This document shows positions 7,841 through 25,120 of a DNA stretch of 25,745 nucleotides, one piece after another. Made by a program: the position numbers and the translations under genes. The stretch is from positions 1-25,745 of the IMG/VR virus record IMGVR_UViG_3300020580_000051. One strand, written 5' to 3'. A model generated the notes under the pieces. That model ran no database searches and was not told the origin of the DNA. It saw only the letters and a list, made by a program, of their open reading frames with translations. The stretch comes from a virus. Position 1 is the stretch's first letter. The number at the start of each line of letters is the position of its first letter.

Positions 7841-9453
7841 CAGCTTGCCATCCAGCCATGGCCGCTTCTGTCATCGGAAGCCAGAATCGGCGTGCGCGGC
7901 AGCGGCTTCTTTTTTTCTTTTTCCGGTTTATAGCCCAACGCGCCAGTCATGAGTGAAGATGCTCCATGGCTGGCCCAATCGTGCAACGGCTCGCGGCTCC
8001 AGGTCGCCAACTGCTCGTTCCACTTTTTGCGGTAGTTATCGAGACAGCGGATGCCCTGTTCGCAGTTCTTTTGGTCGATCCAGCAAAGCCCCAGAAATTG
8101 CCGCCCGGCGTCGATGGCGTCCCCAATCTCGGCGACGCGCGGGATCAGGGTGAACTTGATGCCGAGGCCCTGCGCGATCTGCATCCGGTTTTTTGCCGGG
8201 GCGCCAGGCTGTGCCACCTGCCCCCATTCGGTATTCCCGATATCGTGCGGGCCGTAATGCTTGCCATAGGTCCAGCCGAATTCGGACCGCCGCGCGCTCA
8301 ACTCGCGCGCATAAAACGAAATCGGCTCATCGGAATCTTCGAAATAGTCTATCAATCGGTGGCGCAGCCCGTCGGTCTGATGAAACCAGATCGAAGTGGT
8401 ATCGTTGCCGATATCCCAGAAGGTATTGACAAGCCGGCCTTCGTCGTAAGGAACATCTCCGATGCGCCCATCGATCCGCGCCCGATTCATCTGGCGCTTG
8501 AAATAGGCGCCGTCCACAGAGGCCTTGAACGCCTCTTCCGGAAACGACGGATATTCCGAAAACATTTTGTCGGGGCCGATCTGGTAACGCTTGGCCGTAT
8601 ACCAGGCGCGCTGAGCGGCATCGAGTTCAATTCCGTATTTGCCTTTCAACTCCAGAAAATACTCGTCCAGATCCTTTGGCACCCGCACCTTCTCCGGATC
8701 GATGCGGTAACCCGGATGTTGCCACCACGCGAAGAAGTGCAGCCGGAAATCCAATTCCGATAGCGGGCGACCCTCCTTCTGCAGCGCGTCGGCGCGCTGG
8801 ATCAATTCATGGAATTCGCCGCCGACGCCTTCGGCCGTGCTCTCAACATCGATGCGATAGCCGGGGTGGACGGTCCCGAAACCACCGGTCTTGATTTCCT
8901 TGGCCTTCTCCGGGCGCGTCGCGCTGATCTTGCCATATTCGGAGACATGCAGATGCTGGAATGTGCCGCCGCGATGTGAAATCCCGACTTCGATCTTGGA
9001 ACCGTTGGCGAATTCCAAGGTCTCGGTATTGGCCTTGAGCAGCGGGACTTGTTTCTTGATCCGCGCCGGCAGGTTCCGATAGGCAAACTTGATTTTCTCC
9101 AGCTTCTTCGAAGCATCATCCAGGCTATAGTCGATGATGCCGGCCGCGAAATTCGGAGTGAACAGACACTCGTCCAGCATCTCCAGCACAATGGCCGTCG
9201 AGAACCCCAACTGCCGCGCCTTCAGGATGGCATTGAGGCACCAGCGATTGCCCCACCATTGCCGTTGAGCATCATTGCGCACGAAGCGGATGGCTTTGCC
9301 GCCTTCGTCGAGGATCCAGTAGAGATTATCGATGCGCCAGTTCTGGTCGCCGAAGGTCACCCGTTCCAGTTCGGGCGCGATCAGATTATCGAGTTCTGCA
9401 ATCTCCGCGTCCCCCAACGAGGCAATATAGGCCTGCGCCTCGTTGAGGTTCAT
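7840..9453 (-). CDS. Terminase large subunit
   Basis: The protein has 537 residues. A Walker A-like motif (L-K-A-R-Q-L-G-F-S-T, residues 77-86) is followed by a Walker B-type V-S-E-Y (170-173) and an S-T-A-E-G coupling motif (205-209) of the ATPase domain. The nuclease domain begins with F-W-D-I-G-N-D-T-T-S (345-354), where Asp347 is the expected first metal ligand; Y-P-S-F-P-E-E-A-F precedes it. It pumps DNA through the portal and cuts it. The ATG at 9453 has GAGGGCGG upstream and lies 15 bases after the previous stop. Unlike P22, several genes separate it from the small subunit. Confidence 0.9.
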   Translation of the reverse strand: MNLNEAQAYIASLGDAEIAELDNLIAPELERVTFGDQNWRIDNLYWILDEGGKAIRFVRNDAQRQWWGNRWCLNAILKARQLGFSTAIVLEMLDECLFTPNFAAGIIDYSLDDASKKLEKIKFAYRNLPARIKKQVPLLKANTETLEFANGSKIEVGISHRGGTFQHLHVSEYGKISATRPEKAKEIKTGGFGTVHPGYRIDVESTAEGVGGEFHELIQRADALQKEGRPLSELDFRLHFFAWWQHPGYRIDPEKVRVPKDLDEYFLELKGKYGIELDAAQRAWYTAKRYQIGPDKMFSEYPSFPEEAFKASVDGAYFKRQMNRARIDGRIGDVPYDEGRLVNTFWDIGNDTTSIWFHQTDGLRHRLIDYFEDSDEPISFYARELSARRSEFGWTYGKHYGPHDIGNTEWGQVAQPGAPAKNRMQIAQGLGIKFTLIPRVAEIGDAIDAGRQFLGLCWIDQKNCEQGIRCLDNYRKKWNEQLATWSREPLHDWASHGASSLMTGALGYKPEKEKKKPLPRTPILASDDRSGHGWMAS

Positions 9454-13218: not shown

Positions 13219-13290
13219 AAGATTTTCGGGGGAACCACGTTGAGGAGCCCGTGTAAACCAACGGGGTGTCGTTCCTCAACTGCTCGGGAT
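13219..13290. repeat. Dispersed repeat R2, copy 1, between terminators
   Basis: The plus-strand core AACCACGTTGAGGA (from about 13232) and TTCCTCAACTGCT (ending 13283) match copy 2 near 15870-15921 with identical spacing; the central AACGGGG is also shared. Each copy carries GTTGAGGA and TCCTCAAC as an eight-base inverted repeat. This copy lies between terminators T1 and T2. Read on the minus strand, it gives A-V-E-E then P-V and L-N-V-V, like the start of the protein at 15626-15934. Confidence 0.65.
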
Positions 13291-15629: not shown

Positions 15630-15934
15630 GCATTCACCTCTATCGGCTCGCAAACCGGCGTCCCCGTCCCCTCGATCCGCTCCAGGGAGCGCCAGAACTC
15701 GGTCCAGTGAATCTCCCGCCCGCCCTGCCATTCGTGGCGGCCGACCTTGACGATGCCGCAGTTGTTCAGGCATTCGCGTTCGGTCTTGTGGGGGGAGATT
15801 GTTTGCTTGTCGCCCCAGCGGTGTTTCTTGGTCATGTGGCAGTGGCTTTCGAAGATAAGGTTTTGGAGAACCACGTTGAGGATTCCGGGCAAGGCAACGG
15901 GGAGGATTTCCTCAACTGCTTTCGTGAGGGTCAT
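15626..15934 (-). CDS. Small protein with single-zinc-site pattern
   Basis: The protein has 102 residues, starting at the ATG at 15934, which overlaps the methyltransferase stop (ATGA). The first 28 residues (A-V-E-E-I-L-P-V-A-L-P-G-I-L-N-V-V) are coded inside repeat R2 copy 2. The rest begins M-T-K-K-H-R-W-G, which could be an alternative start. C-L-N-N-C-G-I-V-K-V and a later T-P-V-C-E-P resemble the protein at 16891-17169 (C-L-N-C-G-A-I-K-I and A-P-P-C-D), so both may be members of one small zinc-binding family. The function is unknown. Confidence 0.55.
   Translation of the reverse strand: MTLTKAVEEILPVALPGILNVVLQNLIFESHCHMTKKHRWGDKQTISPHKTERECLNNCGIVKVGRHEWQGGREIHWTEFWRSLERIEGTGTPVCEPIEVNA
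15865..15922. repeat. Dispersed repeat R2, copy 2
   Basis: AACCACGTTGAGGA, AACGGGG and TTCCTCAACTGCT are spaced exactly as in copy 1 at 13219-13290. GTTGAGGA and TCCTCAAC give an inverted repeat. The copy lies inside the first codons of the 102-residue gene, so its sequence is read as protein there, unlike copy 1, which is in the terminator spacer. Confidence 0.65.
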
Positions 15935-16812
15935 TCGGCGGCCCTCGCGAACAGCGGCGTCAGGCTGCCGGCGTGCTCGTAATCGAGCGCGGCCGCGCAA
16001 GCTGGATTGATCCACAACACCTCGGTGCGCGGGCGTGCGCCGTCGGCCAGCGCAGCGAATTCGATCCGCCGCCAGTCGTGCAGGGCTTCGTCGTAAAGCG
16101 GATGGGCGTAGCCCGATAGGACCACCATGCCGGTCAGCGCGCGGAGCGTTTCCAGAAGCTTCGCATGCCCCCCCCGGTCGAGCTCGTGGCGATAGGCCGA
16201 TTTGCCGCTCTTGAACATCGAGCGGGTGTCGTGGACGTAGGGCGGATCGACGTAATGCAGCGACGTCAATGCGTCGTGGCGTTTCAACACGATCAGGGCG
16301 TCACGATGCTCGATGACGACGCCGCGCATTCGCTCGATGATCGCGCTGTAGGCATCGGGCAGGTTCTGCCAGTCTTGCGCCGGCGTGGTGCCGGAGCGGT
16401 TCGAGTTGGAACGGAAGCCAGTCGATTGATGGCCGCGCTGTGTCGCAGAATGGGCATTGGACCCGAACCCCATGAACGAGCGGATCACCAGACGCCGCGC
16501 GCGTTCGACCGAGTCGTCGGATGGATCATAGGCGATCTCGAATTCGCGCCTGGCGAACGGTGTCAGCCGCAGCAGTTCGACCAAGCGGGAGGCCTGCGCC
16601 GGATCCTGCAGCACCCGGAACAGCCCGACGATATCGTCATCGAGGTCGTTGAAGATCTCCGCATGCGCGCGCGGCTTATGCAGCAGCACGCCGGCGCCGC
16701 CGCCGAAGGCCTCGGTGTAAAGCCGGTGCGCCGGCAGATAGGGAATGATCTGCCGCGACATCAGGAATTTGCCGCCATGCCAGCGGACCGGCGGGCGCGT
16801 GATCGCGCTCAT
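15931..16812 (-). CDS. D12-class DNA adenine N6-methyltransferase
   Basis: The protein has 293 residues. Motif I-type A-F-G-G-G-A-G (35-41) follows W-H-G-G-K (11-15), which is the N-terminal signature of the D12/Dam class. The catalytic V-D-P-P-Y lies at 188-192. Between them are the D-P-S-D-D-S helix region and F-M-G-F-G-S-N-A. The enzyme transfers a methyl group from S-adenosylmethionine to adenine in a short target. It could protect phage DNA from restriction or mark it for regulation. The next gene overlaps its stop (ATGA). A second adenine methyltransferase of another class lies at 22061-23122. Confidence 0.85.
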   Translation of the reverse strand: MSAITRPPVRWHGGKFLMSRQIIPYLPAHRLYTEAFGGGAGVLLHKPRAHAEIFNDLDDDIVGLFRVLQDPAQASRLVELLRLTPFARREFEIAYDPSDDSVERARRLVIRSFMGFGSNAHSATQRGHQSTGFRSNSNRSGTTPAQDWQNLPDAYSAIIERMRGVVIEHRDALIVLKRHDALTSLHYVDPPYVHDTRSMFKSGKSAYRHELDRGGHAKLLETLRALTGMVVLSGYAHPLYDEALHDWRRIEFAALADGARPRTEVLWINPACAAALDYEHAGSLTPLFARAAE

Positions 16813-16861
16813 GCTGCTAGACTTCCAAATGAGGAAAGACTGACTGTTGGGTGACGCGGGA

Positions 16862-16891
16862 TCATCAACGTGGTTCTCCAGAATCTTCCCT
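16862..16891. repeat. Dispersed repeat R2, inverted partial copy
   Basis: The plus strand reads ATCATCAACGTGGTTCTCCA, then GAATCTT. This matches the minus strand of copy 2 (ATCCTCAACGTGGTTCTCCA then AAACCTT) with few changes. It therefore has the opposite orientation and only the right half of the element. It fills the 78-base gap between the methyltransferase start and the upstream gene stop. Confidence 0.55.
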
Positions 16892-17843: not shown

Positions 17844-17868
17844 GTGATGCGGGCTCGTTTTGAGATGG

Positions 17869-17927
17869 GGACAACTGCCGGCGGCGTGGGCTGCGGCACC
17901 TGTCAGGTTATTGTTGAGTTTTTGCTC
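17869..17927. repeat. Dispersed repeat R3, copy 1
   Basis: GGACAACTGCCGG, then after eight bases GCTGCGGCACCTGTC, and at the end TTTGCTC, occur with the same spacing at 24394-24452. GACAaCTGCC and GGCAccTGTC can pair as a stem with two mismatches. The copy begins just after the stop of the GapR-domain gene. Read on the minus strand it would encode E-Q-K-L, then T-G-A-A-A and G-S-C-P, as the other copy nearly does. Confidence 0.65.
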
Positions 17928-17931
17928 GGCA

Positions 17932-18552
17932 TCACGGCGGCGCTGATCCCGGCGCGGGTGCCTTCGGATCGGAGCGCAATCGCTTGGCCGCCGCCGCCTC
18001 TTCGGCGCGATCGGCTGCGCTCTTGACGTGCGATTTGCGGATGCCGTCGACGTCTTCGGTCGGGAAACGCCCGGTATCGTCGAAGTCGTCGCGCGACATC
18101 GGCTTAATGGTCGGCGCGGGCTCGTCGACTTCTTCGGCAACGGCTTTGCCTTCGGCATCGCGGAACACGCGCACCGGCAGCCCGCCGAGCTTCAGCACGA
18201 TCTCGCCATGCGGCGGGCAGATGCTCTTTAAGAATTCCACGGCCTCTTCGCGTGCGGCAAGATCGACCGCGAATTTGCCGAGTGCCACGAACAGCGGCGG
18301 TTCTTCGGCCATGCCGATGGCGTGCATGTAGGTATCGAGCAGTGCCTCCTGCTCCTGCCGTTTGGAGACATCGAGTTTCCGCAGCGTCAGAATCGCGCGG
18401 ATGGTCTTGACGTCGAAGCCTTGCGCCTTGCCGCGCTGAAAGATTTCCTTCTCCTGTTCGGAGAGTTGCTTCTTGCGGTCGCGCACGCCCTCGATCTCTT
18501 CGATCAGGCCGCGCAGTTCCTTGCCGCTTTTGGTGCCCTTGCCGATGCTCAT
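17932..18552 (-). CDS. GapR/DUF2312-domain protein with long C-terminus
   Basis: The protein has 206 residues. The N-terminal 78 residues follow the GapR pattern: L-R-G-L-I-E-E-I-E, a charged helix, G-F-D-V-K-T-I-R-A-I, L-R-K-L-D and R-Q-E-Q-E-A-L-L-D-T-Y-M. Alphaproteobacterial GapR is a nucleoid-associated protein of about 90 residues that clamps overtwisted DNA. Here a further 125 residues follow, first folded (F-V-A-L-G-K-F-A-V-D-L then L-P-V-R-V-F-R-D), then charged and disordered. The phage might use it to alter host DNA topology during replication. Its start overlaps a 23-codon micro-ORF (ATGA). Confidence 0.75.
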   Translation of the reverse strand: MSIGKGTKSGKELRGLIEEIEGVRDRKKQLSEQEKEIFQRGKAQGFDVKTIRAILTLRKLDVSKRQEQEALLDTYMHAIGMAEEPPLFVALGKFAVDLAAREEAVEFLKSICPPHGEIVLKLGGLPVRVFRDAEGKAVAEEVDEPAPTIKPMSRDDFDDTGRFPTEDVDGIRKSHVKSAADRAEEAAAAKRLRSDPKAPAPGSAPP

Positions 18553-18620
18553 GACGAAACAACCTCCCCTGATCCCTGACCGATAGGTGCTGCTTCAATT
18601 TCAGTGGTTCGGTGATCCAT
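18549..18620 (-). CDS. 23-codon micro-ORF, R1 family member 1
   Basis: The frame is M-D-H-R-T-T, ending S-S, with 23 residues. GGAGG lies seven bases before the ATG, so initiation should be strong. The stop TGA overlaps the ATG of the GapR-domain gene. Position 14-15 is G-Q. Length and pattern match two other micro-ORFs (18788-18859 and 20878-20949). Such a coupled peptide may act mainly in translation of the next gene, or be an independent micropeptide; no function is known. Confidence 0.6.
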   Translation of the reverse strand: MDHRTTEIEAAPIGQGSGEVVSS

Positions 18621-18644
18621 ATCCTTCCCTCCCCTTCACTTGTC
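18610..18644 (-). repeat. 35-base direct repeat, first copy
   Basis: This is identical over 35 bases to 18849-18883. It contains the ribosome binding site GGGGAGGG, the start codon of the micro-ORF and the end of the previous coding frame. Because the upstream genes end differently, the repeat looks like a mobile translation start cassette. Confidence 0.9.
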
Positions 18645-18791
18645 GTGGCTTGCGCCATTCAAATTCAAAACAAGGATCAGTGCCCAGAAACCATATCCCC
18701 CGCCGCCGAATGCGTAGACGCCGACAATGATCGCGGCGATGACAATGAGCGTCACGATATTTTCGGTCACCGCCCACGCAAGGGGACTCAT
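18636..18791 (-). CDS. Small two-helix membrane protein
   Basis: The frame has 51 codons from ATG 18791, which overlaps the stop of micro-ORF member 2 (ATGA). The protein has two hydrophobic segments, about residues 11-28 (I-V-T-L-I-V-I-A-A-I-I-V-G-V) and 34-43 (F-W-A-L-I-L-V-L), separated by a Gly-rich turn. The end, N-G-A-S-H-D-K, is polar. It is an inner membrane protein by prediction; the function is unknown. Confidence 0.6.
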   Translation of the reverse strand: MSPLAWAVTENIVTLIVIAAIIVGVYAFGGGGYGFWALILVLNLNGASHDK

Positions 18792-18859
18792 GTTGAGGCA
18801 TCCCCCACTGATCCCTGACCGCTCGCTGCCGACGCGCCCTCGCTAGTGCGGTGATCCAT
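18788..18859 (-). CDS. 23-codon micro-ORF, R1 family member 2
   Basis: The frame begins M-D-H-R-T-S-E-G and has G-Q at positions 14-15. It has 23 residues, as does member 1, and its stop overlaps the next gene start (ATGA). The upstream 35-base region is identical to that of member 1. The Gly/Ser/Ala-rich end differs, so the peptides share pattern more than sequence. Confidence 0.6.
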   Translation of the reverse strand: MDHRTSEGASAASGQGSVGDAST

Positions 18860-18883
18860 ATCCTTCCCTCCCCTTCACTTGTC
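18849..18883 (-). repeat. 35-base direct repeat, second copy
   Basis: This is an exact copy of 18610-18644. It again spans the end of the upstream gene, a strong ribosome binding site and the first codons of a micro-ORF. Together with the first copy it brackets the membrane-protein gene and could recombine to delete or duplicate it. Confidence 0.9.
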
Positions 18884-19114
18884 TCGCTTCTTCGATGCCA
18901 CGCCGATCTCGTAACCCTCTCGCGTCAAGGCCTCGATCACCGCTGCCACCACCAGGCTGTTCGGGGTGATTTCGCGCTTCCAGAACTCGAACTGCATGGC
19001 GTAGTTGAGCGCGCAGGCGATGGTCTCGTCGGGATCGAGCAACGGGCCGGAGCGGGGCTTGCGGGTTTGCAGCGGCATGCGGTCGATCGAGACGGGGAGA
19101 TGCTTCACACTCAT
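18875..19114 (-). CDS. Small hypothetical protein
   Basis: The frame has 79 codons from ATG 19114, overlapping the previous stop (ATGA). It reads D-R-M-P-L-Q-T-R, then D-E-T-I-A-C-A-L-N-Y-A-M-Q-F-E-F-W-K-R and L-V-V-A-A-V-I-E-A-L-T-R-E-G-Y-E. It is a mixed helical fold, without a known family. Its stop lies in the 35-base direct repeat. The function is unknown. Confidence 0.55.
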   Translation of the reverse strand: MSVKHLPVSIDRMPLQTRKPRSGPLLDPDETIACALNYAMQFEFWKREITPNSLVVAAVIEALTREGYEIGVASKKRDK

Positions 19115-19302
19115 TTTCTGCGCACCGGGCCAAGTTCCCGCGACAGCATCATGCTTGCCGCTTCGTCGATCGGGACGTTCCACGCACTTGCAAGCTTGCC
19201 TAAGCGCCAATAGTCGCGCCGCGTCAGCTTCACCACGACGGCTTTCGCTTCGTCGTCACGTTCGATCCGAACGATGGGTAGGATCAGGATTTCAGCGCTC
19301 AT
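19111..19302 (-). CDS. Small hypothetical protein
   Basis: The protein has 63 residues. The N-terminal strands (I-L-I-L-P-I-V-R-I-E-R-D, A-V-V-V-K-L-T) are followed by a helix, Y-W-R-L-G-K-L-A-S-A-W-N-V-P-I-D-E-A-A-S-M-M-L-S. A beta-beta-alpha-alpha form would suit a small DNA-binding or antirepressor-like protein, but no family is recognised. Both ends overlap neighbours (ATGA), which supports the frame. Confidence 0.55.
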   Translation of the reverse strand: MSAEILILPIVRIERDDEAKAVVVKLTRRDYWRLGKLASAWNVPIDEAASMMLSRELGPVRRK

Positions 19303-19718
19303 GGCTCACCTTCCAAACCAACGGCGTCCGCGCCACCGAGGGGGGCGCCAGGGGGCGCGGACGCAAGCCGGCACGGGATGCCCTCCGGCGCGCCGGGTTC
19401 GTGGATAGGAAGATGCTGCGGACCATGACCGGCGGCGTGCTGGGCGGCAGCCGACTGGTGATCAGAGAGAATGCCGGGCTTCGCAATGGCCCCGGCAAGC
19501 ATCGGCATCAAATCCCACATGATGCAGGCTTGCTCCATGCTTATTTCTCCGAGCGATTCTTCCCCGATCGTGAGGAACGTCCCGGCCTTCGACATGGAAA
19601 TGCTCATAGGCTTGCCGATCCCAGCCTTCACCCTGTAGAGCATCTCATCGTTAGTCATCGGCACTGCGGGGTGACCGCTCGGTGCCGACGCGGATTCGTG
19701 ATCCAGAATCTTCGTCAC
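19299..19718 (-). CDS. Hypothetical protein with R1 sequence at its start
   Basis: The GTG at 19718 overlaps the previous stop (GTGA) and would give 139 residues; the ATG at 19658 (M-T-N-D-E-M) would give 119. With the GTG start, residues 6-19 (D-H-E-S-A-S-A-P-S-G-H-P-A-V) match the R1 micro-ORF pattern, so the linker is fused in frame. The folded part has G-K-P-M-S-I-S-M-S-K-A-G-T-F-L and S-M-E-Q-A-C-I-M-W-D-L. The C-terminal 50 residues are rich in Ala, Pro, Gly and His. The function is unknown. Confidence 0.5.
   Translation of the reverse strand: MTKILDHESASAPSGHPAVPMTNDEMLYRVKAGIGKPMSISMSKAGTFLTIGEESLGEISMEQACIMWDLMPMLAGAIAKPGILSDHQSAAAQHAAGHGPQHLPIHEPGAPEGIPCRLASAPPGAPLGGADAVGLEGEP
19664..19709. 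repeat. R1 linker copy fused to gene start
   Basis: The plus strand CGGGGTGACCGCTCGGTGCC is identical to that at 23951-23970. It is followed by GACGCG and, 10 bases on, GTGATCCA, matching the core of the micro-ORF at 18788-18859. The copy supplies the possible first 20 codons of the gene at 19299-19718. Confidence 0.65.
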
Positions 19719-19897
19719 GTCGGCACCCCGCAGCGCCCGCAGCCGTGGATCCACTCGCCCGCGATCTTGCGCACCTTCCAGCCCTCACGCCTCATCTTCT
19801 CTCGGGCTTCCTCGAAGTCTTTCGTCTCGGTATCGAGCACGGCATCGCACGAGTCGCACTCGACGATGAGGATGCCGCCTTTTTGCCGGTCGATCAT
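19715..19897 (-). CDS. Small zinc-ribbon protein
   Basis: The protein has 60 residues. C-D-S-C at 14-17 and C-G-R-C near the C-terminus (about 53-56) form two C-x2-C pairs. Between them are L-D-T-E-T-K-D-F-E-E-A-R and G-W-K-V, as in a small family of phage-associated zinc ribbons (C-D-x-C, then L-x-T, A-x-x-x-G-W and a final C-x-x-C). It starts three bases after the AAA+ gene stop. It is presumably a structural zinc ribbon that binds nucleic acid or protein. Confidence 0.65.
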   Translation of the reverse strand: MIDRQKGGILIVECDSCDAVLDTETKDFEEAREKMRREGWKVRKIAGEWIHGCGRCGVPT

Positions 19898-19900
19898 GAT

Positions 19901-20881
19901 CTAACGCCGGTGTTGTTTTGCGGGATGTAGGAATCCGACATTCCCGCGCTGTCCGCCAAGGCCGTCGGATTCGATTTTCTGCTGGCGCATTTCGTTGAGA
20001 CGGTCGAAGACGGAATCTTCCGTTTGATCGAAACATTTGATGGCGATGATGACTTCGCGCAAATGCGCGATGCTGTAATCATCGGTGCGGCGGACCCAGC
20101 GTTCCAGCGTCTCGGTATCGAGCGACGGTTCTTTTGCCTTGAAGTAGACGCGCCGCGCGTCCGCCGATGGCATGCCGACGCGCATGATGGTGTCAAAGCG
20201 CGATGGGCGGTCGACGAATCGCCGGTCGAGATATTCCGGGTAGTTCGTGGTCGCGACATGCACCACGTTGGAAATCTGCGTCTCGCCATCGAGCAGCGCC
20301 AGGAAGCCGTGATCGCCGTGCTGGCCCACGAGTGCATCCAGATCTTCCATGATCGTGATCATGGGCCGCTCCGGCTCGATCCGCCGCAACAGTCCGATGC
20401 AGGCTGTGGCAAGTCCGGGATGCTCGATGAAAACCACGATGCCGCGATGCAGCCGCACCAGCTCTTGCGTCATCTGCCAGATCGCCGAAGTCTTGCCGCT
20501 GCCGGGCGGTCCCCACATCAATAGCCCGCGCTTGAAGGTGAAGCCGCGCTTGGAAAAATTCTCCCGCAACGTCCAGAATTTCTTGAATTCGGCGAGCAGC
20601 GTCTCGACCGCGCTGTCGGGCAGCGTCAACAGGCTGTCGATCTCGATCGGCATCTTTTCGAGATAAGGCCCCTGATTGGATGATCGGCAGCGATAGGCGC
20701 CCGGCGGCAATTCGTTGACGACTTCGGCAACGGGAAAATAAGCATCTCCGCTTTGTGCCCAGCATCGCGCGCTGGCGGCAATCTGTGCCCAATTGCTATC
20801 AGGTGCAGAAGCCTCGATCGCCGGCTGCATGCCGCTGCGCTCCGAAACTCGCGTTCCAACCAAATTTGCAAAATCGCTCAT
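19901..20881 (-). CDS. AAA+ family ATPase
   Basis: The protein has 326 residues. Walker A is G-P-P-G-S-G-K-T at 124-131 and Walker B is M-I-T-I-M-E-D-L-D at 174-182. Sensor 1, A-T-T-N-Y-P-E-Y-L-D-R, is at 210-220, with Arg finger candidates in D-R-R-F-V-D-R-P-S-R-F-D. This is the layout of classical AAA domains such as FtsH and BCS1 types. About 80 N-terminal residues precede the domain and could select substrate. No protease motif follows. It may remodel a replication or repair complex. Its start overlaps micro-ORF member 3 (ATGA). Confidence 0.8.
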   Translation of the reverse strand: MSDFANLVGTRVSERSGMQPAIEASAPDSNWAQIAASARCWAQSGDAYFPVAEVVNELPPGAYRCRSSNQGPYLEKMPIEIDSLLTLPDSAVETLLAEFKKFWTLRENFSKRGFTFKRGLLMWGPPGSGKTSAIWQMTQELVRLHRGIVVFIEHPGLATACIGLLRRIEPERPMITIMEDLDALVGQHGDHGFLALLDGETQISNVVHVATTNYPEYLDRRFVDRPSRFDTIMRVGMPSADARRVYFKAKEPSLDTETLERWVRRTDDYSIAHLREVIIAIKCFDQTEDSVFDRLNEMRQQKIESDGLGGQRGNVGFLHPAKQHRR

Positions 20882-20949
20882 GCTAAAGCATCCTCAACTG
20901 CGGGGTGACCGATGATCGCCAACGCGAACTGGCTGGCGCGGTGAAACAA
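20878..20949 (-). CDS. 23-codon micro-ORF, R1 family member 3 (TTG start)
   Basis: With a TTG start at 20949 the frame is exactly 23 codons (M-F-H-R-A-S at the start, G-H-P-A-V-E-D at 14-20) and its stop overlaps the AAA+ ATG. The length and key positions agree with members 1 and 2. No good ribosome binding site is seen at normal distance (AAGG is one base before the TTG), so expression is doubtful. Confidence 0.45.
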   Translation of the reverse strand: MFHRASQFALAIIGHPAVEDALA

Positions 20950-20963
20950 ACCTTATTTCATCT

Positions 20964-21161
20964 TCACCCAAACCTCCGCCGCAAAATCTTCTCCACCGGC
21001 GAGCGTTCCTTGAACCTCACCACGCACTTGTGAACGACTACCCCCGAAAGCAGAAACCCCAGCGCCAGCAGCCAGAGAGCGAACAGCGGCATCGACTGCT
21101 CGATCAGAGAGTCGAGGCCGTCGATGTTGTCGGGGAACAGGGAGAGCGCGAGCGAGAGCAT
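20964..21161 (-). CDS. Small membrane protein
   Basis: The protein has 65 residues. A hydrophobic helix at 25-46 (P-L-F-A-L-W-L-L-A-L-G-F-L-L-S-G-V-V-V) follows an N-terminal L-S-L-A-L-S-L-F. The C-terminus is strongly basic (R-F-K-E-R-S, K-I-L-R-R-R-F-G), consistent with a cytoplasmic tail. One transmembrane segment is clear. The function is unknown. It begins three bases after the previous stop. Confidence 0.6.
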   Translation of the reverse strand: MLSLALSLFPDNIDGLDSLIEQSMPLFALWLLALGFLLSGVVVHKCVVRFKERSPVEKILRRRFG

Positions 21162-21164
21162 GGC

Positions 21165-21599
21165 TCAGAAATCCCCTTCGGCGACTTGCGCGCAGGGAAT
21201 GCCCGCATCGCGCCATGCCTTGACCACGCGGTTGCGATCATCGAATGCCATGAGCGGTTCGAAGCCGTCGGCGCGGACTTGCGCCAACAGCTCGATCTTG
21301 AGCAAGTCATCGTTTTTGTGATCGCCCTGCTTGCGCATGTAGAGCGCGTCGCAGGGGAAGCCATGGGTATCGAGCCAGTCGATCGTTTGCTGGCGGACCA
21401 TATCCGAGCGCCCGGAGACGTAGACGATCTGGGCAAACTCGCTCAACCCGGTGACGACCGCGCGCATGTGTTCGATCGGGATATCCGCGCCACAGGCGAG
21501 GAAATAATCGTCCCAGGCCTTCGGTTCCTTTTGGATGTGATGCAGCCGGTGGTCGCCGTTGGCGACCGTGCCGTCGATGTCGATCAGAAAACACTTCAT
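21165..21599 (-). CDS. HAD-type polynucleotide 3'-phosphatase domain
   Basis: The protein has 144 residues. HAD motif I, D-I-D-G-T, is at 7-11, motif II V-S-G-R at 61-64, the Lys of motif III near K101 and motif IV F-D-D-R at 119-122. The T-I-D-W-L, L-Y-M-R and V-V-K-A-W-R pattern is that of the phosphatase half of the T4 polynucleotide kinase/phosphatase (PNKP) family. There is no P-loop kinase half. It would remove 3'-phosphates from nucleic acid ends. A free nucleotide or protein phosphatase role cannot be excluded. Its start overlaps the MazG-like stop (ATGA). Confidence 0.75.
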   Translation of the reverse strand: MKCFLIDIDGTVANGDHRLHHIQKEPKAWDDYFLACGADIPIEHMRAVVTGLSEFAQIVYVSGRSDMVRQQTIDWLDTHGFPCDALYMRKQGDHKNDDLLKIELLAQVRADGFEPLMAFDDRNRVVKAWRDAGIPCAQVAEGDF

Positions 21600-21910
21600 G
21601 CCGTCGCTCCCAACCTCGCCTTGTGCTTCTCGACGACCTTGAGAAGTTTTTGCTCGACGTGCTGATCGAGCTTGATTCCCTCGATGCTGAAGCACTTGGC
21701 GAGCAATTCGAGATAGACCCGGATGTCGGCGATTTCCTCGCGGCATTCGTCGGTCAGATCGGCCCCGTCGCGCCAGCGTTTCTTGATCATGTTGCAGAGC
21801 TCGCCGACTTCGCCAGCCAGCGCGAGCGCCAGAAATCGCTCGTCCGTGTTCGAGTAGGCGGGAAAAAGATGGGCCGTCATTTTCTCGTGCAGCGCGTAGA
21901 TATCGGTCAT
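21596..21910 (-). CDS. MazG-like nucleoside triphosphate pyrophosphohydrolase
   Basis: The protein has 104 residues. G-E-V-G-E-L near 33-38 and E-E-I-A-D-I at 58-63 form the E-x-x-E and E-x-x-D metal-binding motifs of the MazG/all-alpha NTP-PPase fold. The motif spacing and the helical Y-L-E-L-L-A fit. Such enzymes hydrolyse nucleoside triphosphates to monophosphates and can clean dNTP pools or lower ppGpp in infected cells. The start overlaps a six-codon frame and the stop overlaps the phosphatase start (both ATGA). Confidence 0.75.
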   Translation of the reverse strand: MTDIYALHEKMTAHLFPAYSNTDERFLALALAGEVGELCNMIKKRWRDGADLTDECREEIADIRVYLELLAKCFSIEGIKLDQHVEQKLLKVVEKHKARLGATA

Positions 21911-21923
21911 TTGGTTTGCTCTC

Positions 21924-22064
21924 TCATGTGAAAATCCACTTCACCAGCGCGACGAACTTCAGTACTTCGAGCGCCACGCCGAACACGACGGCCGCGATCG
22001 ATGTTGCAATCACGGCGATGATGATGGCGCCGGTGTGATCCTTTTCGCGCGGTTGCTGCCTCAT
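21924..22064 (-). CDS. Small single-span membrane protein
   Basis: The frame has 46 codons from ATG 22064, which overlaps the methyltransferase stop (ATGA). Its polar start (M-R-Q-Q-P-R-E-K-D-H) is followed by a long hydrophobic helix, residues 12-40 (A-I-I-I-A-V-I-A-T-S-I-A-A-V-V-F-G-V). The stop lies 14 bases before the MazG-like start. It is too short for most gene finders. The function is unknown. Confidence 0.6.
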   Translation of the reverse strand: MRQQPREKDHTGAIIIAVIATSIAAVVFGVALEVLKFVALVKWIFT

Positions 22065-23122
22065 GCCGCCTCTTCCCCCTCTGCCATGCCGGGCGATGGC
22101 TGTTTTGCAACCGGCGCCTCAAGGCCCCATGCTTCCCAGCCAGGCCGCGCGCGGCGCGCGTTCAATTCGATCTTCGGCAGCGTCGGGAAATAGCTTTCGA
22201 TCATGGTGTAGACCGCATCCGGCTTTTCCGAATGCGCCCCGACCGGTGCCTCGAACATGCTGGTCAGTTGCGTGCCCATCGCTGGCGCCGGGATATTTCC
22301 CCGGGTGCCGACCAGCAGCAGCTCGTGCATGTTCCGGAACCAATAGCCGGTGCCAATGCGGTCCTTTTTCCAGATGCAGTGCGACTTGTAGGCAAACCCC
22401 CAGGCGGCCATGACGCGCAACGCATCGGGCAGCATCGGAACGGTCGCCCACAAAAACAGCGCGCAATCGTCGGCGGCGATATCCCATACCGGCCGCGCGC
22501 AGATCGCGTCTGTCTCCGACGTCGGATAGTGGTTGTCGGCTGAGCGATCCATCCCGGTGTCGCGGCTATAGGGTTGGAAGCGCCATTCCGGATCGGCGAG
22601 GATGACGCCGTATTTCTTGTCCGGCAGCGCAAGCTGGATGCCCCCCAGAATCCTCTCGCGGGTTTCGCGCGCCGTCTTTTTTTCGGCCTCTGATCCGATC
22701 CGCAGCAGATCCATGGTGACGCGGGCTTCGCCTTCGGATACTTCCGCGCGCCAGGCACCGATCCGCGATTCGAATTCCGCTGCCGGAACCGCCGCCATCT
22801 TCTGCGCGTGCGAGGAAAGTTTCTTGTCGATGCCGGCATCGGCCAGCGTCGGCCGTTCGTCCCGTGGTTCGGTTTCGGTACCACGGCGAAGCGCGCCGCG
22901 ATTTAATCCGACGCTCTCTTTCTGAGCGACGATCATCTGCCCCAGCCGCCGCTCGGCATGGAACCTGATCTCCGCAGCATCGACCTCAAGTGAGCGGTCG
23001 GCGGCGCGGCGGGCGTATTCCTTCATCGCCACCGCTTTGTCGAGAATCGCTTTCACGTCATCGACGGCCTTGGCTTCCGCCAGCATGATCCGGGCCTGGT
23101 CGTAGGGGACGAGCGCCGTCAT
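22061..23122 (-). CDS. MT-A70 family DNA adenine methyltransferase
   Basis: The protein has 353 residues. The N-terminal half (A-R-I-M-L-A-E-A-K-A-V-D-D-V-K-A-I and E-R-R-L-G-Q-M-I) is the helical region often found before phage MT-A70 domains. The catalytic domain has I-L-A-D-P-E-W at 174-180, the family's D-P-x-W motif with Glu for the common Pro, then Y-P-T-S-E-T and C-A-L-F-L-W-A-T-V-P, I-W-K-K and G-T-R-G-N-I-P-A-P. A-H-S-E-K-P-D follows. It should methylate adenine in DNA. It starts at an ATGA overlap. Together with the D12 enzyme it gives the phage two adenine modification systems. Confidence 0.85.
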   Translation of the reverse strand: MTALVPYDQARIMLAEAKAVDDVKAILDKAVAMKEYARRAADRSLEVDAAEIRFHAERRLGQMIVAQKESVGLNRGALRRGTETEPRDERPTLADAGIDKKLSSHAQKMAAVPAAEFESRIGAWRAEVSEGEARVTMDLLRIGSEAEKKTARETRERILGGIQLALPDKKYGVILADPEWRFQPYSRDTGMDRSADNHYPTSETDAICARPVWDIAADDCALFLWATVPMLPDALRVMAAWGFAYKSHCIWKKDRIGTGYWFRNMHELLLVGTRGNIPAPAMGTQLTSMFEAPVGAHSEKPDAVYTMIESYFPTLPKIELNARRARPGWEAWGLEAPVAKQPSPGMAEGEEAA

Positions 23123-24009
23123 GCCGCGATCCTCGCTTCCGGCGCGTCGATATTGGCCTTGATGACGCGGAAGGTGATGGCGACGACGAAGGGGTTTTCC
23201 GCCCATGACTTGTCGCCGTGAAGCGAGGACCACAAGAGATAGAACAACCGGCGCGCGACCGGGCCATAGTTGGTTTCCTCGGCAGCCTCAGTGCCACGCA
23301 AAAATGCTAGCCCGGCTTCTTTTCTCGACCAGCCGTCTCGCCAGGTCGAGACGCCTTCCGCCTTGGCATCCGCGTCGCTGATATCCCGTAGTCGCTCGAT
23401 CTTGACGCCGGTCACGATCAGCGTGAGACGGGAGGCCCAGCGCGGCATGTGGATCGGCGACCGCCAGGCATGCGTTTCGTTTTCGGCTTCGCAATCCGCA
23501 GCCCATACAGACCAAGCATTGCTGCCAGCCGGGAATTTTTCGTATTCGACTGGATAGCTCTCATCGACAAGATAGCGGCGGCCGGTGTCCGCGCGCGTCA
23601 GAAGCACGGGGCCATTGTCGCTATTGGCCGGACACCATGTCTCGCGAACCCATAATCTATCGCCGACAGCGTAGGGGATGCGAGCGTGCCAATGCGTTCT
23701 CGTCGCGGGCGCCTGGTGATCGAATGCTTTTGCGGACCAAGTCCATAGATTGCTGTCTATGTTTCTGAAGCCGGCGGCCTCGAGCAATGCGCGCGCGGCG
23801 CCGTCGCCTGTCAACGTGTAGGCCGAGGACTCCGGCGTTGCCCCAATACGAAGACGATTTAGCATGCGCCGCGTCATGGTCTTGCGGCCTTCCAGCAGCG
23901 CACGGACCATCGGAGCGGAAAAGATGATCGGGATATCCTTGCCGAAAGTGCCGGGGTGACCGCTCGGTGCCAAGGCAACGGCAGCGGCGCCTTGATTCAC
24001 ATCCTTCAT
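23119..24009 (-). CDS. ASCH-like phage protein with R1 linker at N-terminus
   Basis: The protein has 296 residues. After a short head, residues 26-50 read I-P-I-I-F-S-A-P-M-V-R-A-L-L-E-G-R-K-T-M-T-R-R, the hallmark of a widespread phage protein with ASCH/PUA-like fold. Later R-L-W-V-R-E-T-W-C and P-I-H-M-P-R-W-A-S-R-L-T-L and I-S-D-A-D-A-K-A-E-G-V follow in the same order as in that family. ASCH domains are thought to bind RNA or modified nucleotides; its role is unknown. Residues 10-25 (A-V-A-L-A-P-S-G-H-P-G-T) are coded by an R1 copy. The start overlaps the previous stop (ATGA). Confidence 0.7.
   Translation of the reverse strand: MKDVNQGAAAVALAPSGHPGTFGKDIPIIFSAPMVRALLEGRKTMTRRMLNRLRIGATPESSAYTLTGDGAARALLEAAGFRNIDSNLWTWSAKAFDHQAPATRTHWHARIPYAVGDRLWVRETWCPANSDNGPVLLTRADTGRRYLVDESYPVEYEKFPAGSNAWSVWAADCEAENETHAWRSPIHMPRWASRLTLIVTGVKIERLRDISDADAKAEGVSTWRDGWSRKEAGLAFLRGTEAAEETNYGPVARRLFYLLWSSLHGDKSWAENPFVVAITFRVIKANIDAPEARIAA
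23949..23985. repeat. R1 linker copy fused to ASCH-like gene
   Basis: CGGGGTGACCGCTCGGTGCC (23951-23970) is a 20-base match to 19670-19689. On the minus strand it gives A-P-S-G-H-P-G at the N-terminus of the ASCH-like protein. It is in frame without a stop, so the linker has become part of the protein. Confidence 0.65.
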
Positions 24010-24242
24010 CGCCGCGCCCTCCGCATCCCGTTCACCCAGACGGCAATGAACGCCGGCCACGCCACGATGACGGTAAGCGAAGCCAGCACGATTGCGATTT
24101 GCGCATTCCGCACTGACGACGAGCGCCCACTTTCGACGCGCTCGAGGAACGTGCTGCGGATCACCCCGGTCCGCTCCAGGAAGCACCACACCAGCGATCC
24201 GGCGGCGAGCCAGCAAAGCGAAACGGTGACGAGGTCGTGCAT
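24006..24242 (-). CDS. Small two-span membrane protein
   Basis: The protein has 78 residues. Hydrophobic segments are at 3-22 (L-V-T-V-S-L-C-W-L-A-A-G-S-L-V-W-C-F) and 48-70 (I-A-I-V-L-A-S-L-T-V-I-V-A-W-P-A-F-I). A basic loop lies between them and the C-terminus is R-R-A-R-R. By the positive-inside rule the loop and tail should be cytoplasmic. The function is unknown. It is the first gene after a 208-base spacer that holds repeat R3. Confidence 0.55.
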   Translation of the reverse strand: MHDLVTVSLCWLAAGSLVWCFLERTGVIRSTFLERVESGRSSSVRNAQIAIVLASLTVIVAWPAFIAVWVNGMRRARR

Positions 24243-24393
24243 GCGGGGTTTCTTTCACTCTTTAAGCGTCAGGCAACAGAACAGCGCTCTGCAAAACGGG
24301 ATGCAGACGCGGGATAAGCTTTTGGATTTCGGGTTACGCGGTGATGCTTACGTTACAAGTCGCACGACGCTTTGAAGCGCCTTAGTGGTTATT
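24243..24393. other. Spacer after XRE gene
   Basis: This stretch holds no convincing gene. CGCTT/AAGCG inverted bases occur near 24367-24382. A possible promoter exists for the block that begins at 24242, but I could not assign -35 and -10 elements with confidence. It may hold regulatory sites for the XRE protein coded upstream. Confidence 0.35.
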
Positions 24394-24452
24394 GGACAAC
24401 TGCCGGATTGATTTGCTGCGGCACCTGTCTGGTGTTCGATCAGTCTTTGCTC
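24394..24452. repeat. Dispersed repeat R3, copy 2
   Basis: This 59-base element shares GGACAACTGCCGG, GCTGCGGCACCTGTC and a final TTTGCTC with copy 1 at 17869-17927, at identical spacing. It overlaps the end of the XRE gene stop. Both copies begin immediately after a stop codon on the minus strand. Inverted arms (GACA..TGCC and GGCA..TGTC) allow a hairpin. Confidence 0.65.
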
Positions 24453-24651
24453 AACTACACGAGGCCAACCGCTCCAATTTGAGTCCGAGGGCCTTGGCGA
24501 TCTTGACGACGTTGCGCCAACTTGGATTCTTGATGTGTCCCGTCTCGATCTGCGAAAGAAGGGCGTTGCTGATGCCGGTCTGCTTTTCGAGTTCGCGAAG
24601 GGTTAAGCCTTTGCATTCTCGCGCGACTAGGATCAGCTCGCCCAGCCTCAT
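24451..24651 (-). CDS. XRE-family transcription regulator
   Basis: The protein has 66 residues and is almost only a helix-turn-helix of the Cro/CI-XRE type: L-T-L-R-E-L-E-K-Q-T-G-I-S (15-28) then L-L-S-Q-I-E-T-G-H-I-K-N-P-S-W. A-K-A-L-G-L-K-L closes the domain. It probably represses or activates early promoters, or controls lysogeny. The ATG overlaps the previous stop (ATGA). There is no separate oligomerisation domain. Confidence 0.85.
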   Translation of the reverse strand: MRLGELILVARECKGLTLRELEKQTGISNALLSQIETGHIKNPSWRNVVKIAKALGLKLERLASCS

Positions 24652-25010
24652 GCTGCCGCTTCCTCGCGTTTGACTGTTCCGATTTCGATTGGCGGCTTGC
24701 CGCTCGACAGCAAATCCTTTTCGCGCGCGAGATATGGCTTCTTGTCGCCCTCGTTGACCAGGATATACGTCACGCCGCGCGCACCGACTTGCGCCAGCGC
24801 CGGTCGCGGTTCACCGACAAGATCGGCGAGCGCCCAATCGGGCGAGAAACCCGGCGGGATCGCAACAGCGACAATAGCTTCACGCGGGAAAGTCCGCAGC
24901 GCCTTGGTGTTGCGCACCTTCACGATATCGCCGCGCTTGAAGATTGCGGAGTCGCACGGAGGCGTCTCGCCGTGGCCCGCATGCATCACCATGAGGATCG
25001 GATTGCTCAC
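24648..25010 (-). CDS. Hypothetical protein with small beta domain
   Basis: The frame has 120 codons from a GTG at 25010 (M-S-N-P-I-L-M-V-M-H), preceded by GGGGAGGG at 12 to 19 bases. F-K-R-G-D-I-V-K-V-R-N near residue 25 is a beta-barrel type motif like that of KOW or SH3 folds, and I-A-V-A-I-P-P-G-F-S-P-D follows. The C-terminus is K-P-P-I-E-I-G-T-V. I do not recognise the family. It follows the terminator candidate and linker E, so it may start the main early block. Confidence 0.55.
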   Translation of the reverse strand: MSNPILMVMHAGHGETPPCDSAIFKRGDIVKVRNTKALRTFPREAIVAVAIPPGFSPDWALADLVGEPRPALAQVGARGVTYILVNEGDKKPYLAREKDLLSSGKPPIEIGTVKREEAAA

Positions 25011-25020
25011 GCGCTCGCCC

Positions 25021-25092
25021 TCCCCGCCGAAGCTTCCCCACTGCCGCCTGACCGATGACTGCCGATCGGCATGCAGTGGCGCGGTGAAACAA
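25021..25092. repeat. R1 linker copy, probably decayed
   Basis: On the minus strand from the TTG at 25092 the frame reads M-F-H-R-A-T, and G-Q at positions 14-15, exactly as in the R1 micro-ORFs. It is very like member 3: TTTGTTTCACCGCGCCA is shared by both. No stop follows at codon 24, and the frame runs on past the next gene start. The GTG start of the next gene is in another frame. The copy therefore seems to have lost its coupling by a small deletion or insertion. Confidence 0.55.
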
Positions 25093-25120
25093 AAGAAAAC
25101 GCCCCACTGTCGCAGGGGCC
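25086..25120 (-). terminator. Intrinsic terminator candidate after Cro-like gene
   Basis: On the minus strand, GCCCCTG pairs with CAG(T)GGGGC across a CGA loop, with one bulge, and is followed by TTTTCTTTTGTTT. It lies 160 bases after the stop of the helix-turn-helix gene at 25284-25517 and would separate that gene from the early block. Confidence 0.6.

Follow-up and report, generated by a model that had tools for sequence, protein, structure and literature searches.

Repeated gene-start elements in a soil phage contig as probable left ends of exchangeable gene cassettes

The virus record IMGVR_UViG_3300020580_000051 of IMG/VR (25,745 bases, possibly a fragment; analysed whole and hereafter called the window) carries a DNA element of about 65 nucleotides (nt), repeated at or just before the starts of unrelated genes and referred to here as the left end. 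A megablast of the window against cultured phages returned zero relatives; full-length copies from other viral contigs came out of IMG/VR scans with 15-mers and further patterns. A sequence-only model of the left end, R2 (alignment A3), holds 15 copies, all external to the window. Search of the window with R2 returns exactly six loci, all on the minus strand (E-values 1.3e-16 to 7.9e-6). The lowest-scoring of these reaches 26.6 bits with an external hidden Markov model (HMM), compared with a maximum of 8.2 bits when this HMM was run on 40 shuffled windows; the six copies are real, beyond chance. The copies, the genes beside them and two matches to a second element, the right end, are as follows.

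18558-18625, minus strand: left end, copy A (R2 7.1e-8; external HMM 1.9e-10)
17932-18552, minus strand: GapR-domain gene, behind copy A (PF10073 3.3e-22)
17863-17910, minus strand: right end of cassette A, separated from the GapR stop by 22 nt (HMM 1.7e-12; TAACCTGACAGGTGCCG..CGGCAGTTGTCCCC)
18798-18864, minus strand: left end, copy B (R2 7.7e-12)
18636-18791, minus strand: membrane protein of 51 amino acids (aa), cargo behind copy B (from its sequence; no Pfam match)
18875-19114, minus strand: conserved gene upstream of the GapR-site cassette (blastp to the G778 homologue, 36% over 61 aa, 8e-10)
20887-20952, minus strand: left end, copy C (R2 1.3e-16)
19901-20881, minus strand: AAA ATPase, cargo behind copy C (PF00004 4.5e-11)
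25029-25094, minus strand: left end, copy D, leader of gene 24648-25010 and out of frame with it (R2 1.4e-11)
24648-25010, minus strand: 120-aa protein with no assigned function, first gene behind copy D (no Pfam or PHROG match)
24451-24651, minus strand: XRE-type helix-turn-helix protein, second gene behind copy D (PF01381 1.3e-11)
24390-24433, minus strand: right end of cassette D, after the XRE gene (HMM 1.3e-6)
19655-19711, minus strand: left end, copy E, N-terminus of gene 19299-19718 (R2 5.9e-10)
19299-19718, minus strand: gene fused in frame to copy E (open frame)
23947-24005, minus strand: left end, copy F, N-terminus of gene 23119-24009 (R2 7.9e-6)
23119-24009, minus strand: gene fused in frame to copy F (phrog_874 5e-61, the match starting at about residue 20)

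Copies A, B and C each lie in a minus-strand open reading frame (ORF) of 72 nt whose stop overlaps the next start as ATGA. The micro-ORF of copy A (18549-18620) reads MDHRTTEIEAAPIGQGSGEVVSS and then stop, and is coupled to the GapR gene; that of copy B (18788-18859) reads MDHRTSEGASAASGQGSVGDAST and then stop, and is coupled to the membrane gene; that of copy C (20878-20949) has a TTG start, reads (TTG)FHRASQFALAIIGHPAVEDALA and then stop, and is coupled to the AAA ATPase. A preliminary description, made from the letters of the window, had pointed out these three frames, the unrelated genes behind them, a further copy at 25021-25092 with no stop in place (copy D) and two in-frame fusions (copies E and F) that have the 20-mer GGCACCGAGCGGTCACCCCG in common, and all are present as it described them. 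It missed that the common sequence starts 5' of the micro-ORF and includes an upstream AAGGAT, that copies A and B share the end of the gene before them as well, and that right ends follow the genes behind copies A and D.

In related soil phages the common unit is likewise a DNA element, in which the Shine-Dalgarno-like AAGGAT is followed by a start codon and a run of about 18 codons free of stops. Its consensus, AAGGATATGGATCACCG..GGTCACCCCGCAGT, spans the start codon; GGTCACCCCGCAGT is highly conserved and AAGGAT or AAGAAT usually lies just 5'. The preliminary description had set conservation in related genomes as the test of the family, and such conservation is present rather than absent. 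The element forms the in-frame start of seven unrelated external genes in G002, G777, G778, G780 and L228, among them MDHRATEPASAVIGYPAV followed by NADAR (PF08719, 2e-28), MDHRATEPATAVIGHPTI followed by DUF4326 (PF14216, 4e-20) and MDHRITESASASSGHPTA followed by a weak DUF551 match (PF04448, 2e-4); the other four fusion proteins have no curated family match in Pfam. For the NADAR and DUF4326 cargo, most listed alignments to homologues from other phages begin after residue 12-40, past the tag. An RNA-structure model of the left end holds five weak pairs only. Contigs with relatives of the AAA or GapR proteins (L066-L076) gave no element match in the stretches searched; just upstream of position 8001 in one of them (L073) a GapR relative has a different short frame, MDSTTLASRRNGNAAAKF, 5' of GapR.

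The right end, also conserved, is an element about 45 nt long, TAACCTGACAGG[TG]G..GG...TTGTCC. In 7/7 external left-end fusions the cargo stop codon lies in it or just before it, and an HMM made from these seven right ends, with the window excluded, finds exactly two matches in the window, at 17865-17910 and 24391-24432, within the two right ends listed above and behind the genes that follow left ends A and D. It holds stop codons in several frames (TAA, TGA and TAG) and folds as a hairpin, for which covariation supports 0/8 pairs. Right ends with no evident cargo gene were also seen on two contigs (L322, 5943-5989; L342, 9215-9262), where they adjoin terminator-like hairpins.

Evidence that the gene between the ends is exchanged comes from comparison of fixed sites. 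G778 provides an empty site, at which the upstream gene ends in AAGAAATGATGCACGC and the TGA of that gene overlaps the start of GapR. In G777 this upstream gene and GapR (proteins 78% and 71% identical to those of G778) are separated by a left end, a DUF4326 gene and a right end; in G002 the homologous upstream gene is followed by a left end, NADAR and a right end; and in the window it is followed by copy B, the membrane gene, copy A and GapR. The upstream gene is constant while the cargo differs, as at lambdoid boundaries. The AAA ATPase of the window and copy C sit between two conserved genes, which in G002 and G777 flank only one small gene; comparison of these flanks finds no AAA ATPase between them in either phage. 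Left ends are 93% alike at two sites within G002 and 89% alike between G002 and G777 at the same site, and over the family the ends are approximately 60-93% alike, while cargo and sites vary. A further site, the slot between a holin-like and an OMP-like gene, holds an Acb2-like protein in G004 (L281; PF24729 1.5e-19), a Tad1-like protein in G003 (L289; PF24729 24.1 bits, just below the cut-off of 27), a label which beyond the hairpin domain in common is our assumption, and in L350 (IMGVR_UViG_3300021086_000038) a 79-aa gene of no assigned function that ends in the right element and is a candidate anti-defence gene. Because one phage is empty at a site where others carry different cargo, gene and ends travel together. 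Two guesses of the preliminary description, a mobile gene-start cassette and a recombination boundary between modules, are both supported by these unrelated genes, the matching right end, the cargo that differs at one site and the empty site.

The best reading is that a group of related soil phages has exchangeable gene cassettes and that the copies are their left ends, given that both ends are conserved and bring their own start and stop signals, that the single-gene cargo varies and that one site is empty; we put the probability of this reading at roughly two in three. The left end brings the Shine-Dalgarno-like AAGGAT, the start codon and the stop-free codons, the hairpin-capable right end brings stops in several frames, and between them lies one gene, sometimes two. 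With its own signal at each end, the cargo should therefore be translated in an operon wherever it lands. At copies A, B and C the tag is cut from the gene by the stop overlapping the next start, which would give translational coupling in place of fusion.

How would such cassettes move? As the ends resemble each other while cargo and sites vary, we infer that cassettes move mainly when the ends of co-infecting phages undergo homologous recombination of the single-strand-annealing type. The 93% alike ends within G002 and an ERF-type annealing recombinase in 3/11 records favour this route. Several points weigh against the cassette reading. A recognisable right end was found for just 2/6 left ends of the window; RecT was found in 0/11 records and ERF neither in the window nor in its four nearest relatives, all possibly fragments; recombination between shared ends accounts for the swapping of cargo and not for first entry into an empty site; and the inverted pairs and palindromes of some contigs, described below, fit a transposon-like history equally. 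We hold it doubtful that the ends belong to a dedicated phage cassette-exchange system, in which a specific recombinase would act on them, a gene or ORF-internal domain would be dropped into standard slots, and accessory or anti-defence genes (Acb2-like, Tad1-like, NADAR and others) would be traded.

The main rival, because of these inverted pairs, is transposition. It would make the copies non-autonomous transposon-like units (mobile insertion cassettes, or units like miniature inverted-repeat transposable elements) with terminal arms in inverted orientation and a transposase acting in trans to move them, the empty forms being palindromes. Some contigs do hold the left element twice, inverted, either empty or around a PAPS-reductase domain. 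Models without the arms in question recover such arms in G780 (6299(+)/7224(-), 1.6e-8 and 1.2e-9), G778 (16500(+)/16570(-), 1.7e-6 and 1.8e-7), G004 (13109(+), 0.002), G323 (1501(+)/2053(-), 5.5e-4) and, with model R1, G003 (0.003). For the palindromic pairs of G004 the independent values are those of R2 only, because model R3 by construction included some G004 right arms. One large open frame of G780 has a PAPS-reductase domain (PF01507) between the two arms, and in the homologous protein of G778 the arms stand side by side without that domain. In the very large ORFs of G780 (L298/L303) and G778 (L212) the repeat arms are in-frame linkers between several enzyme domains (PAPS reductase, D12-methyltransferase-like and others).

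We nevertheless consider transposition unlikely. The window-type right end is not detectable as an inverted left end at the profile level (best 1.1 bits versus up to 2.9 in shuffled controls), although single stretches of it do resemble one; local alignment found no inverted partner of the window left ends better than shuffles; and no target-site duplication was seen by eye at the G777/G778 site, the sole occupied/empty pair. Host chromosomes show no spread of the family either. The first left-end model matched 7/196 Bradyrhizobium genomes; in six of these the match is one orthologous locus with the frame not kept, and the seventh has two copies 12 kb apart. The right end was found in 0/243 Bradyrhizobium genomes, and the palindrome-end pattern gave, in Bradyrhizobium, just the one orthologous relic locus and chance matches. 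Single consensus ends, left or right, had no match in 50,697 cultured-phage records nor in plasmid records. From the few Bradyrhizobium matches and the zero cultured-phage and plasmid matches, the family is essentially phage-borne, and from the nearest matches we infer hosts of Bradyrhizobium type.

A chromosomal REP-type repeat was also considered and rejected, since strong matches occur in few host-like genomes, and a 15-mer scan of genome contigs was mostly uninformative, giving chance matches save for one Bradyrhizobium locus. Bradyrhizobium loci L200, L202-L206, L251 and L306-L316 have one degenerate left-end-like arm 3' of a terminator-like hairpin; the gene behind it starts MRFRRRAFW or similar, and the reading frame is not kept.

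An element that is purely regulatory (a promoter, a translation enhancer or a leader that binds RNA or protein, present in copies at many gene starts as mycobacteriophage SAS is, the gene itself being immobile) would explain the location at gene starts, the AAGGAT, the high conservation of GGTCACCCCGCAGT and the folding of the right end. This explanation is improbable, as cargo differs at the same site between phages, one site is empty and no covariation supports the right-end hairpin.

The last alternative is selection on the encoded peptide, as functional micropeptides or N-terminal tags (for instance in localisation or complex formation), with DNA conservation secondary. In its favour, M1 and G14 are invariant and H3, R4 and E7 nearly invariant in 12 aligned peptides, and the frame is kept at in-frame gene starts. 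The preliminary description had proposed comparison of synonymous with non-synonymous change; pN/pS is indeed below 1, but the codon-phase signal is weak, with 0.68 in 10 gene-start copies versus 0.80 in nine other copies, a difference with no significance test behind it. The core GGTCACCCCGCAGT is preserved in copies that have no start codon or have a stop in frame, the first such copies having been found via a search for GGTCACCCCGCAGT, and in L281, L287 and L289 the element is conserved though it lacks a start codon or has an in-frame TAG. Relatives at gene starts are mostly in-frame N-terminal fusions rather than free micro-ORFs, and the tag is missing from most of the listed DUF4326 and NADAR homologue alignments. 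From the similar pN/pS values and the core kept in start-less and stop-bearing copies, a weak test, the peptide is probably tolerated rather than selected, a by-product of the boundary; a family of micropeptides as the primary function, the third guess of the preliminary description, is not supported and is the most improbable of these explanations.

The window also carries a different repeat family, with inverted 58-nt arms at 15857-15914 (+) and 16830-16887 (-) which flank a D12 adenine methyltransferase gene (15931-16812), and a third arm copy at 13225-13278 (+). No copies of this family were found in the other phage loci compared.

Phage mosaicism is usually accounted for by illegitimate recombination followed by selection, with joints that leave little trace. 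Here the joints are conserved and recognisable on both sides of single genes, carry translation signals of their own and can be compared occupied and empty at one site. Related soil phages appear to use such cassettes to move accessory genes, including anti-defence genes, into and out of set positions in the genome, and how phages trade these genes becomes a directly testable question. The ends are also a handle for finding new cargo, one example being the 79-aa gene at the slot occupied in other phages by Acb2-like or Tad1-like proteins.

Several known systems resemble these cassettes in part. Lambdoid boundary sequences are short and conserved, lie where genes meet, and have been proposed as places at which modules are exchanged by homologous recombination. 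They have in common with the present family the conserved junction sequence and the ATGA stop/start overlap; here, however, two distinct ends bound a single cargo at several sites, the left end is translated and an empty site is available for comparison. The PeSL cassettes of T4-type phages are mobile regulatory cassettes made of an early promoter and a stem-loop, and are likewise repeated modules proposed to aid the shuffling of accessory genes, whereas the left end is coding and no promoter was identified here (no promoter scan was made). Rickettsia palindromic elements are palindromic repeats read in frame inside genes across a bacterial chromosome, much as in G778 and G780, but here the arms also flank cargo, and do so in phages.

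Integron gene cassettes and attC arrays have been reported in phages (PMC9892861), and they too combine one gene with a hairpin-forming site after the stop codon and exchangeable cargo; the right end lies at the cargo stop in all seven external cassettes, and also after GapR and XRE. Identity of the right end with attC was rejected: 14 aligned right ends carry TAACCTGACAGG..NTTGTCC, and the R box GTTRRRY (partner RYYYAAC) is absent from the conserved columns. Unlike integron cassettes, those described here have a left end with a start codon, and no integron integrase was identified.

The start-associated sequences (SAS) of cluster K mycobacteriophages and their extended form, ESAS, are phage-specific short repeats, nearly always in a single orientation, at the starts of many non-structural genes unrelated to one another; they are essentially absent from the host, and the extended form contains inverted repeats (PMC3203893). 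The six window copies similarly share one strand, the minus, and lie at or just before the starts of unrelated genes, and the family is phage-specific, with matches in only the 7/196 genomes of Bradyrhizobium, itself a presumed host. SAS is a 13-bp sequence, GGGATAGGAGCCC, located 3-7 bp before the start codon (PMC3203893), whereas the left end spans the start codon and 18 codons in about 65 nt and has a matching element at the stop codon. In the mycobacteriophages a gene family keeps its ESAS across phages (PMC3203893); here, in contrast, the gene between the two ends changes.

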